Of a stretch of 29,586 nucleotides of DNA, positions 2,069-5,250 are shown piece by piece. The DNA comes from a virus: the IMG/VR virus record IMGVR_UViG_3300037104_000021, positions 1 to 29,586 of that record, one strand, 5' to 3'. The position numbers were made by a program, and so were the translations under genes. Under the pieces are notes generated by a model. The model worked only from the letters and a program-made list of their open reading frames with translations. It ran no database searches and was not told where the DNA came from. Every line of letters starts with the position of its first letter. The stretch's first letter is position 1.

Positions 2069-2192
2069 TGAAGTACAAGTAGAAGCTGACAACAAGACTA
2101 ACGCGTTTAAGCATTATCTCAATATCCACCCTGACAAGAAAATAACGTTGGTTTACCACGGATGCACCCATGATACCAAGACCACCAGATGA
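2043..2192 (+). CDS. Hypothetical 49-aa protein
   Basis: A short ORF (MLFEIQINDEVQVEAD... HYLNIHPDKKITLVYHG) with a good GGAGA ribosome site about 7 bases before the ATG. It overlaps the Tudor-like gene upstream by 26 bases and the polymerase start by 23 bases. The beta-rich start and 'KKITLVYHG' end look like a folded small domain rather than noise. I do not recognise it. Confidence 0.5.
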   Translation: MLFEIQINDEVQVEADNKTNAFKHYLNIHPDKKITLVYHGCTHDTKTTR

Positions 2193-5100
2193 TTTACGTG
2201 TTGGCGACACTCTTATCGCTGGACTCAGTGTGGCCACAGTACTTCCTGATATCGACTTTGAAACACGTTCACCTGCAGGTCATGTCTGGGATGGACAAAC
2301 GTTCGTCCCGCCACATGGGGCAAACGCCAAGGGGCTACGTGTTGTAGGTACTTCTGTTTATAGTGAGCATCCAGGTTGTGAAGTACTCTGCATGGCTTAT
2401 GATTTAAAAGACGGGTTCGGTTCACGTACTTGGAAACCAGGTGAACCAGCCCCCTTAGATTTATTTATACATTTACAGGGAGGAGGTTTAATTGAAGCTT
2501 GGAACTCGGCTTTTGAATTCTATATATGGAACAATGTCTGTGTGCGTCGTTATAACTTTCCTCCTCTTGCGATTCATAGCCTTAGGTGCGCTGCAGCTAA
2601 ATCGCGGGCTTTTTCTCTTCCTTCGTCACTTGAGGAAGCTGGACGCGTACTTAATATCAAAAATAAAAAACTAGCTGCTGACGGTAAGCGTTTAATCAAA
2701 CGATACTGCGAGCCACATAAACCAACTAAAGCTAACGCTGGTGTGTGGAATGAGCTACGTGATAACCCTTCAGATACTGTACTTATGCAGCAGTACAACC
2801 TTGTGGATATCAAAGCTGAGGCTGAGTTATCAGGCCAGATACCAGATCTGTCGCCTACCGAGTTAGAGTTCTGGTTGGCTGACCAAGCTATAAATCGTCG
2901 TGGTGTGCGTATGGATCGTAAGGCCATAGAGAATTGCATCGCTATCGTAGAACAAGCTTATGAGAAATACAATTCTGAAATACCTGCTCTCACTAATGGC
3001 GCGGTAACTGCAGTATCGCAACTAGCTCGCATTACTAAATGGATGAATAGCTATGGCGTATTCAGCAAGTCGTTAGATGAGGCACATATCGATGGATTAC
3101 TTAAGACGTTGTTGCCTCCACAGGTTCATCGAGTATTACAGATACGCCAACTCATAGGGTCCGCAGCAGTTAAGAAACTGTACGCTATGATTAACAGGCT
3201 TTCTGCTGACGGACGTATGCGGGATCTATTTGTTTACCACACAGCACGCACTGGTCGTGCAGGTGGGGAAGGCGTACAACCGCAGAACCTACCGAACAAC
3301 GCTTGGATGAGAGCATGGGAGTGCGCAACTTGTGGTAAACATTCTGCCGTAGAGGTATGTTTCTGGTGCGGGGGACTTAACACTAAAGAAATAGAATGGA
3401 ATACTTTAGCGATTGAGAACGCGTTAAGTATCATAGCGACACGTAACTTATCTTGCGTGGAGATGTACTTCGGTGAAGCGATAGCCACAGTATCAGGTTG
3501 CTTACGTGGGATGTTTATATCTGCGGAAGGTAAAGACTTCGTTAGCTCTGATTATTCATCTATTGAAGGGATATGCTTAGCGGTACTTGCAGGTGAAGAG
3601 TGGCGTATAGAAGAGTTCAACGGCGCAGGAAAGATATACGAACGTTCTGCCAGTTTGATTAGTGGGGTGCCTCTACAAGAAATCCTACAATTTAGAAAAG
3701 AAACAGGGAAACATCACGACCTGAGAAAGCTAGGAAAAGTAGCGGAGTTGGCTTGTCTCGCCAGTGATACGCAAGTCTTGACGTCAAGAGGTTACGTGCG
3801 TATAACAGACGTTACTAAATCGGATAAAGTATGGGATGGGGTAGAATGGGTGCATCACAAGGGCGTCATAAGCAAGGGGTTAAGACATACAATAGTGATG
3901 GACGGAGTAACATTAACCCCAAACCACCCCGTGAGTATAGGTTTAAAGTGGAGGACGGCAGAGGAAATCGTTTCGCAAATAAGTACCCTGAACCTAGCCC
4001 TGGAGATCGGTTCGGAGAATTTACCTTTATTAATGCCAATGCCCGTACAAAAAAAGGCGATAAACTGGCGAACTGTCAATGCTCCTGTGGCAACTTCTCG
4101 ACTCCGTACCTCGGAAATTTACGAACCGGAAGGTCTACACGTTGTAAATCTTGCGCAAAAAATAAGTATAGAATGCCAGGCGCTGAAAGAAAGAAAGGGT
4201 ATTCTAAGTACTCACGTATCATTCCTGAATTTGCGTTGCGTAGGAGATTATTTTCTAGGCTTAGTAGTGCGATTAGCAGATGTCATCGTAAAACGAATGT
4301 CAGCTATTATAACTATGGTGCTAGAGGCATTAGTGTTTGTGAAGAATGGAGAAATCCAGATAGGACTGAATTCCTTAAGCATGCTATCACCCTCAAGGGT
4401 TGGGATAACCCATTACTCGACATGGATAGAATCGACGGAGAAAAAGGATATCAGCCAGGTAATATCCGCTTCGTCAGTAGATCAGAAAACATGCTTAATA
4501 GAAGAGCAATACCCGACATGCAAAAACGAATTGACCAACTTGAAGAATGTCTACGACATTGTAAATGCGGGCCCAAGGAATCGCTTCACGATAAAAACAA
4601 CTAGTGGGCATATGCTCGTGCATAATTCAGGTTATGGCGGTTGGCTCGGATCATGGTTAAATTTTAAAGCTGACGAATTTCTTACGGAAGAACAGATTAT
4701 TTCCTCAGTTAAAGCATGGCGTAACGCATCCCCCATGATTGTTAAACTATGGAAGGAAACAGAAACTTGCGCGCATATGGCTGTATTACATCCTAACCAA
4801 GAATTTGCGTACCGTACAATCTCGTATATACGCCGTGGCGATGTCCTATATTGCCGCCTACCTTCGGGCAGACATCTTACCTATCACCGTCCACAGATAG
4901 CTCCTAGCTCGCGTAGGCCAGGAACGATGGAGTTATCTTTTGAGGGCTGGAACTCAGACGGAACAAAAGGCCCTATTGGTTGGACTCGTATGACCACATA
5001 TGGGGCCCGTTTGGTTGAGAATGTCGTACAAGCAGTAGCCCGCGACATACTCGCCCACGCTATCGTCCAACTAGAGAAGCGTGGATACCCTGTCGTATTG

Positions 5101-5250
5101 CATGTGCACGATGAAATTGTTTGTGAAATTCCTGAAGGTTGGGGAAGTGTAGCAGAATTGGAATCCATTATGACCACACTACCATCATGGGCGGCAGATT
5201 GGCCGATACGCGCAGCGGGTGGGTGGCGAGCTAAGAGGTATCAGAAATGA
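2170..5250 (+). CDS. Family A DNA polymerase with 3'-5' exonuclease, interrupted by an intein
   Basis: The 1026-residue precursor is the phage replicative polymerase. The N-terminal proofreading domain is intact: Exo I D29-F-E31, Exo II WNSAFE (111-116), Exo III Y209..D213. There is no 5'-3' exonuclease domain. The polymerase domain shows the thumb-to-palm HTARTGRAGGEGVQPQNLPN segment (357-376), motif A DYSSIE (461-466), motif B K523..., and motif C HVHDE (978-982). A CxxC...CxxC zinc-knuckle-like insert lies at 385-400. Motif B is split by an intein (residues 529-819); removal joins KVAELA to SGYGG, rebuilding the O-helix, and leaves a 735-residue polymerase. A weak GGAT ribosome site precedes ATG 2170. 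Activity should depend on splicing. Confidence 0.93.
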   Translation: MIPRPPDDLRVGDTLIAGLSVATVLPDIDFETRSPAGHVWDGQTFVPPHGANAKGLRVVGTSVYSEHPGCEVLCMAYDLKDGFGSRTWKPGEPAPLDLFIHLQGGGLIEAWNSAFEFYIWNNVCVRRYNFPPLAIHSLRCAAAKSRAFSLPSSLEEAGRVLNIKNKKLAADGKRLIKRYCEPHKPTKANAGVWNELRDNPSDTVLMQQYNLVDIKAEAELSGQIPDLSPTELEFWLADQAINRRGVRMDRKAIENCIAIVEQAYEKYNSEIPALTNGAVTAVSQLARITKWMNSYGVFSKSLDEAHIDGLLKTLLPPQVHRVLQIRQLIGSAAVKKLYAMINRLSADGRMRDLFVYHTARTGRAGGEGVQPQNLPNNAWMRAWECATCGKHSAVEVCFWCGGLNTKEIEWNTLAIENALSIIATRNLSCVEMYFGEAIATVSGCLRGMFISAEGKDFVSSDYSSIEGICLAVLAGEEWRIEEFNGAGKIYERSASLISGVPLQEILQFRKETGKHHDLRKLGKVAELACLASDTQVLTSRGYVRITDVTKSDKVWDGVEWVHHKGVISKGLRHTIVMDGVTLTPNHPVSIGLKWRTAEEIVSQISTLNLALEIGSENLPLLMPMPVQKKAINWRTVNAPVATSRLRTSEIYEPEGLHVVNLAQKISIECQALKERKGILSTHVSFLNLRCVGDYFLGLVVRLADVIVKRMSAIITMVLEALVFVKNGEIQIGLNSLSMLSPSRVGITHYSTWIESTEKKDISQVISASSVDQKTCLIEEQYPTCKNELTNLKNVYDIVNAGPRNRFTIKTTSGHMLVHNSGYGGWLGSWLNFKADEFLTEEQIISSVKAWRNASPMIVKLWKETETCAHMAVLHPNQEFAYRTISYIRRGDVLYCRLPSGRHLTYHRPQIAPSSRRPGTMELSFEGWNSDGTKGPIGWTRMTTYGARLVENVVQAVARDILAHAIVQLEKRGYPVVLHVHDEIVCEIPEGWGSVAELESIMTTLPSWAADWPIRAAGGWRAKRYQK
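3831..4604 (+). CDS. Homing endonuclease encoded in an alternative frame inside the intein
   Basis: A 257-residue ORF lying wholly within the intein but in the -1 frame relative to the polymerase. Residues 58-110 form a zinc-binding module common in phage homing endonucleases (GDRFGEFTFI, then Cys82/84/86 and Cys105/108). Residues 138-225 match the HNH or EDxHD (Vsr-related) nuclease family: YYNYGARGISVCEEW, LLDMDRIDGEKGYQPG, NIRFVSRSENMLNRR. I cannot decide between those two folds by eye. The first ~39 residues lack recognisable homology and overlie intein blocks A-B. A GTG at 3948, just after block B, would give a 218-residue protein filling only the classical endonuclease slot. Other starts are ATG 3831 and 3846, with weak G-rich ribosome sites. 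The TAG falls 22 bases before the intein end. The product would cut intein-free polymerase genes. Confidence 0.85.
   Translation: MGWGRMGASQGRHKQGVKTYNSDGRSNINPKPPREYRFKVEDGRGNRFANKYPEPSPGDRFGEFTFINANARTKKGDKLANCQCSCGNFSTPYLGNLRTGRSTRCKSCAKNKYRMPGAERKKGYSKYSRIIPEFALRRRLFSRLSSAISRCHRKTNVSYYNYGARGISVCEEWRNPDRTEFLKHAITLKGWDNPLLDMDRIDGEKGYQPGNIRFVSRSENMLNRRAIPDMQKRIDQLEECLRHCKCGPKESLHDKNN
4050..4056 (+). promoter_or_regulatory. A_AAA_AAG slippery heptamer in phase for -1 frameshifting into the endonuclease
   Basis: Within the intein the polymerase frame reads CAA AAA AAG GCG, giving the heptamer A_AAA_AAG at 4050-4056 with AAA and AAG as zero-frame codons. This is the classic bacterial -1 slippage sequence. 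A -1 slip continues as GGC GAT AAA, exactly the endonuclease frame (residue 76 onward), and keeps all its Cys residues and the nuclease domain. I saw no clear upstream stimulatory Shine-Dalgarno and did not establish a downstream structure. The endonuclease motif GDRFGEFTF lies before the slip, which argues that internal initiation is at least an alternative. Confidence 0.35.

Follow-up and report, generated by a model that had tools for sequence, protein, structure and literature searches.

Overlapping reading frames for a polymerase intein and a putative homing endonuclease in phage DNA

A virus record of 29,586 bases (IMGVR_UViG_3300037104_000021), which in its full length is referred to here as the window, has a DNA polymerase gene in which two long reading frames pass through the same stretch of DNA. 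One of these continues the polymerase through an intein, while the other, in the -1 frame, resembles a phage homing endonuclease. The question raised by this locus is whether both frames encode proteins, how the two products would be made, and whether such an arrangement, termed dual-coded here, is an accident of a single sequence or an intein architecture in its own right.

The polymerase frame lies at positions 2170-5250 on the plus strand, as do the extein, intein and nuclease features of the window described below, and is a single open frame of 1026 amino acids for a family A DNA polymerase precursor with an in-frame intein, with profile matches to phrog_17 (7e-76) and Pfam DNA_pol_A (1.5e-11). 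Its full-length polymerase relatives, at approximately 40% identity, are found in Vibrio phage 97.13 and Pseudomonas phage MR14. Upstream of the polymerase there is a low-complexity ORF (1482-1892) rich in Ala, Thr, Val and acidic residues. The N-extein (2170-3753) aligns with three intein-free relatives (L001-L003) to residue 528 and ends in GKVAELA, and the C-extein (4627-5250) begins with SGYGG and corresponds to the polymerase palm, matching the DNA polymerase profiles phrog_10285 and phrog_7766. Between them is the intein of 291 amino acids (3754-4626; polymerase residues 529-819), its first residues being CLASDTQVL and its last SGHMLVHN. It bears the signature of a class 1 intein, namely a nucleophile at position 1 (Cys1), the TxxH motif in block B, a terminal His290-Asn291 pair and Ser at the +1 position. 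As the initial annotation had stated, the polymerase frame is unbroken through the intein, and both frames are open over the whole insertion without any edit to the sequence.

Intein blocks A, B, F and G had also been recognised at the outset, and they are borne out by an alignment of 55 inteins in which C1, T6, T55, H58, D268, R277, F278 and N291 are invariant and H290 is present in 54. Profile searches, which had been proposed for both translations, gave for the N-terminal part of the intein a match to TIGR01445 (intein_Nterm) at 1e-3, which is under the curated cutoff, and a profile built from the 55 related inteins matched the Mtu RecA mini-intein structures (2e-4). With AlphaFold2 the two ends of the intein are predicted to form the Hint splicing fold, comprising an N-terminal half with blocks A to B (residues 1-92; 3754-4029; pLDDT 94-98, with 97-98 over residues 1-90) and a C-terminal half with blocks F and G (residues 262-291; 4537-4626; pLDDT 90-98, mostly 94-98), in which YDIVNAGPRNRF and SGHMLVHN are located. 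All 33 Foldseek matches of the intein model were to inteins or Hint relatives (best E-value 1.3e-3). The middle of the intein frame (4030-4536) is predicted to be a disordered linker (pLDDT mostly 41-50). An in-frame endonuclease domain, as in a canonical full-length intein, was not found in the window, the middle having no predicted fold and the nuclease being in the -1 frame. A nuclease hidden in the intein frame itself was rejected, as this middle is disordered and no Pfam family beyond Hint is supported there. The intein frame does also match the phrog_93 'endonuclease' profile, which probably reflects dual-coded inteins within that profile.

It may be asked whether the insertion is in fact a non-working intein that is merely retained in the polymerase, with the hidden HNH gene being all that matters. 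Insertions of this kind exist in ShiLan and Pacc40, which have out-of-frame HNH genes but no splicing motifs (PMC11855218), and the Pacc40 nuclease is a distant homolog of that in the window (E-value 3e-6). In the window, however, the splicing motifs are complete, the splicing residues are all invariant or nearly so across the 55 inteins, the ends are modelled as Hint, the insertion splits the conserved polymerase motif GKVAELA/SGYGG, and the phase of substitutions described below points to amino-acid constraint on the intein ends; a dead intein is considered very unlikely. HNH genes are also frequent in phage introns, and an intron of group I or group II that encloses an endonuclease gene might be mistaken for an intein. 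Yet a search of Rfam over 3400-5000 gave no match even at an E-value of 1, while the frame stays open through the insert and intein blocks are encoded at both of its ends, which leaves an intron with next to no probability.

The -1 frame of the intein DNA has an ORF of 257 amino acids (3831-4604), in which a zinc module and nuclease motifs had been noted initially. The ORF matches the profiles of phrog_374 HNH endonuclease (1e-38) and phrog_2081 (4e-22), and it is because of the former match that the nuclease is assigned as HNH. The putative homing endonuclease gene is placed at 3846-4604, 252 amino acids from ATG 3846 to the stop codon TAG (4602-4604), and is dual-coded with the intein along its entire length. 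Its stop, previously described as lying inside block F, falls instead between blocks F and G. The zinc-site cysteines (CxC ... CxxC; 4080-4154) are C45, C47, C66 and C69, as counted from position 3948, and are invariant in 59 aligned nucleases. The same holds for Y123, R126, D160, R161, Y168, N172, N181 and R186, and the catalytic region (4299-4505) reads NYGARGI ... DMDRID ... GYQPGNIRFV ... ENMLNRR, with invariant residues. A model of the nuclease (residues from 3948 onward; pLDDT 89.8) shows strands at 158-161 and 173-176 followed by a helix at 178-183, and its region 79-186 aligns weakly with the HNH enzyme PacI (Z 5.1 over 88 residues). With the whole model, Foldseek gave no match against the PDB with an E-value below 0.001, although this lack of a strong match is not evidence against the fold. 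The canonical first His, the general base, was not found in the 59 sequences, its expected position next to the invariant Asp being taken by the invariant Arg161. PacI, too, is not known to have a canonical His base. The -1-frame product is a putative zinc-containing HNH-type endonuclease.

Related loci were collected by a polymerase-led search, by tblastn in phages and by nuclease-led searches of viral contigs and genomes, and were classed with HMMs of the intein N block, the intein C block and the nuclease. After removal of duplicates there were 179 loci, with 81 dual-coded at -1 like the window, 94 dual-coded at +1 and four interrupted. A broken polymerase frame in homologs had been named as a finding that would speak against dual coding; 175 of the 179 loci are uninterrupted. 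None of the 175 distinct dual-coded inteins has an intein-frame stop across the nuclease, while stops in the third, unused frame total 2272 across the loci, in none of which this frame is open. The two registers are mutually exclusive, one nuclease group being always at -1 and the other always at +1. In the splicing-domain tree they are separated by one change, a result as low as this occurring in none of 500 shuffles (support 87, few columns), which is consistent with each register having arisen once. The precursors match the polymerase profile in 174 of the 179 cases; the remaining five include two that are family A polymerases by Pfam (L017, L026) and one SNF2-like helicase (L098). The latter has a dual-coded intein of the -1 register within its gene (2467-5016). 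Some polymerases have two dual-coded inteins, with one per register in L006. A contig of Taishania pollutisoli (Bacteroidota; L123) has a polymerase intein 97% identical to Salmonella and Escherichia phage copies, and looks like assembly contamination. Judged from these sequences, dual coding is a stable, widespread and conserved intein architecture in two fixed registers, a possibility that the initial annotation had raised for the window.

Since GC-rich DNA often has one ORF within another by chance alone, the out-of-frame nuclease could be a relic or a chance overlap, with the intein frame open by luck. Synonymous codons were permuted within each nuclease and the stops counted in the intein frame. 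Averaged over the nucleases, such permutation gives 4.9 intein-frame stops. For the window nuclease none of 1000 permutations left the intein frame open; over this nuclease 4.3 intein-frame stops are expected and 0 observed, with 34 in the third frame. When log10 P is summed over 45 representatives of less than 60% identity, a value of about -111 is obtained, which is limited by the floor of the test and includes the one interrupted case. The earlier judgement that the host frame is unlikely to have stayed open by chance is in agreement with these figures. Against luck there is also the complete lack of intein-frame stops in the 175 cases above, and the nuclease frame has a coding pattern of substitutions, with pairwise identity exceeding that of the extein, so that a relic or chance overlap can hardly be entertained.

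Selection was measured on related pairs, 10 from the -1 class and six from the +1 class, because the window itself is without a close relative. At the start of the intein, substitutions at intein codon positions 1, 2 and 3 number 14, 4 and 39. For the -1 class the counts within the core of the nuclease are 131, 478 and 222 (nuclease positions 2, 3 and 1), and after the nuclease stop 29, 18 and 94. The +1 class mirrors the phase of the nuclease core with 418, 184 and 142. The codon phase of substitutions therefore flips at the nuclease boundaries, the changes falling at position 3 of the nuclease in the middle and at position 3 of the intein at both ends. This comparison of both frames across homologs, suggested at the outset, indicates that the selected frame is the nuclease in the middle and the intein at both ends. 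Amino-acid identity in 14 close pairs is 84% for the nuclease, 72% for the N-extein and lowest, at 65%, for the middle of the intein frame. From these identities and the phase together, the intein middle is constrained mainly against stops; as protein, it is a by-product of the nuclease frame.

The endonuclease occupies the usual intein slot out of frame, as had been proposed, but the start then suggested, GTG 3948, is disfavoured. Stops in the nuclease frame of the -1 class are numerous up to intein nt 90 and almost absent thereafter, with three observed against 87 expected over nt 93-195 (78 sequences) and none against 64 over nt 120-195. An ATG, GTG or TTG is present at nt 92 in 76 of the 81 -1-class members, spelled by conserved Glu-Trp codons of the intein (GA[A TG]G), which in the window gives ATG 3846. 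Because of the stop-depletion from nt 93 and the start codon at nt 92, ATG 3846 is the most likely start. The codon-phase shift is visible only from about nt 180-210, and some members may start near the equivalent of 3948. A Jerseyvirus copy (L038, 2943-2960) has a nuclease-frame stop just before the conserved ATG and retains that ATG, a possible further hint to the start site. A weak Shine-Dalgarno-like stretch, TGGGATGGG (3832-3840; about -6.9 kcal/mol, spacing 5), precedes ATG 3846, but it is not independent evidence, since it is dictated by the conserved intein codons VWDGVEW. Many members of the +1 class have a Shine-Dalgarno site approximately 8 nt before an ATG at intein nt 145 (AAGGAGGT in the strongest), with the site spelled by intein Lys-Glu-Val codons and the ATG by Tyr-Gly codons.

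These features suggest that the nuclease is translated separately, by internal initiation at 3846. Programmed ribosomal frameshifting would instead give it as a fusion of polymerase-N, intein-N and nuclease. Two slippery heptamers, CCCAAAC (3918) and TTTAAAG (3942), lie in frame in the window just ahead of the nuclease core, and -1 is the classic direction for such a shift. However, an in-frame heptamer is found there in only 13 of the 81 -1-class members and at scattered positions, the stop-free nuclease frame with its start codon begins upstream of the heptamers, and in the +1 class, where Shine-Dalgarno/ATG pairs are good, the shift would have to be the opposite one. Frameshifting is considered unlikely, and internal initiation is retained as the preferred route.

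That the intein is an insertion is apparent from its absence in L001-L003 and, for the Jerseyvirus-type intein, from the phage records found with a Jerseyvirus polymerase query: the 897-nt intein is present in only 163 of 432, the other 269 being without a match. Between Kagunavirus and Jerseyvirus polymerases the extein is mostly 42-82% identical and the intein 83-100%, with short tracts of 88-92% identity closely flanking the intein. This patchy distribution and contrast in identity are as would be left by homing with co-conversion, and point to homing.

The initial annotation had linked the arrangement to split inteins, and this is supported by four fractured polymerase A genes (L095, L199, L214 and L218) in which a nuclease of the same family separates two polymerase fragments, the first with an N-intein at its end and the second, the C-fragment, with a C-intein at its start and an ATG of its own. 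Two of the four have well-supported dual-coded sisters in the nuclease tree, L199 grouping with L155 (95/80) and L218 with L190 (95/90), whereas L095 is a long branch of unsure placement. In the window, split halves on separate polypeptides were not found, 2170-5250 being one open frame. From the nesting, the change would seem to run from dual-coded to split. In L095 (2-3393) the split intein breaks the polymerase at an RTGR site, the two halves being separated by an HNH-type nuclease ORF, and the C-fragment additionally carries a dual-coded intein. The split inteins of L199, L214 and L218 lie around 3200-4450, and in L214 and L218 translational coupling is suggested by an overlap of the C-fragment ATG with the stop codon of the nuclease. 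In L042 (609-5001) a split intein likewise divides the polymerase A gene, but the nuclease ORF between its halves (1853-2755) is a different one, GIY-YIG-like as named by eye, and there is a dual-coded intein as well, at 3283. In Salmonella phage SS3e (L139, 357-3457) the region is annotated as three genes, polymerase, HNH endonuclease and polymerase, which may reflect either a genuine split or a frameshift introduced by sequencing. In L203 (1414-4018) an intein-free polymerase is followed immediately by a free-standing nuclease of this family, the nearest relative of which in the nuclease tree is dual-coded (99/98). Reduced forms are also present, with a nuclease remnant inside a shrunken intein in L087 and L122, and a mini-intein of 132 residues in L125.

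The reading favoured here, with a probability of roughly 0.86, is a mobile intein with a homing endonuclease overprinted on its linker, giving a spliced polymerase, a separate -1-frame nuclease and homing. The polymerase frame would be translated as a precursor, in which the intein ends would fold as Hint across the disordered linker of approximately 170 residues and splice the polymerase. Ribosomes starting within the intein would translate the -1 frame to give the separate zinc/HNH-type endonuclease, as the selection on that frame suggests, and going by the distribution of the element, this enzyme would cut intein-free polymerase alleles, with repair copying the intein in. A nuclease gene that keeps its own start and stop cannot be in frame, and out of frame its retention within the intein would depend on a host frame free of stops; if the open host frame were lost, the gene could persist in the form of a split intein whose halves flank the nuclease gene. 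A single stretch of DNA would serve a pair of proteins whose demands on it are opposed, and the switch in codon phase reveals the selected frame by region. Dual-coded inteins would offer a natural route to split inteins, which are tools of protein engineering, and the overlap is directly testable in cultured phages.

Among known systems, the fractured genes reportedly described by Dassa in 2009 (NAR 37:2560) have a free-standing endonuclease between split-intein halves, the layout also of L095, L199, L214 and L218. They differ in that their enzyme is described in the initial annotation as Vsr-related, whereas the window nuclease is a phrog_374 HNH, and also in that the host frame of the window is continuous, so that cis-splicing is possible. 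Canonical full-length inteins have an in-frame LAGLIDADG or HNH domain. With these the window has in common a mobile intein with a nuclease located after block B and before F/G, but this nuclease is read in another frame from a start and to a stop of its own, and should therefore not form one polypeptide with the intein. The polymerase intein of Jerseyviruses, as in phage Ent1 gp37 (HE775250), is an element of the same -1 class; it is annotated there as 'encoding splicing domains', with no endonuclease annotated in the overlapping frame, and dual coding explains this annotation of a common phage polymerase intein. The nearest published element, the ShiLan domain, is an out-of-frame HNH gene in an insertion of phage methylases with no intein splicing domain or motifs (Arsenault, Gosselin and Gogarten, 2025; PMC11855218). 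ShiLan and Pacc40 resemble the window in the overprinted HNH gene, the host frame kept open and the mobile distribution; They differ in sitting in methylases, while the window nuclease is enclosed by complete splicing blocks. Full-text searches for prior art gave only the ShiLan work and a genome note reporting an out-of-frame HNH. A 2025 preprint by the ShiLan authors (10.1101/2025.01.02.630785) concerns actinobacteriophage inteins of 'non-canonical architecture' and may hold similar cases. A review of 2020 sorted inteins only as full-length, mini and split (PMC7765530). On balance we lean towards regarding dual-coded inteins as a fourth natural architecture beside these three, one with two fixed registers, spread in phage DNA polymerases and acting as a hub for the repeated origin of split inteins, since the only way for an intein to harbour a nuclease gene that has start and stop codons of its own is in a different frame.
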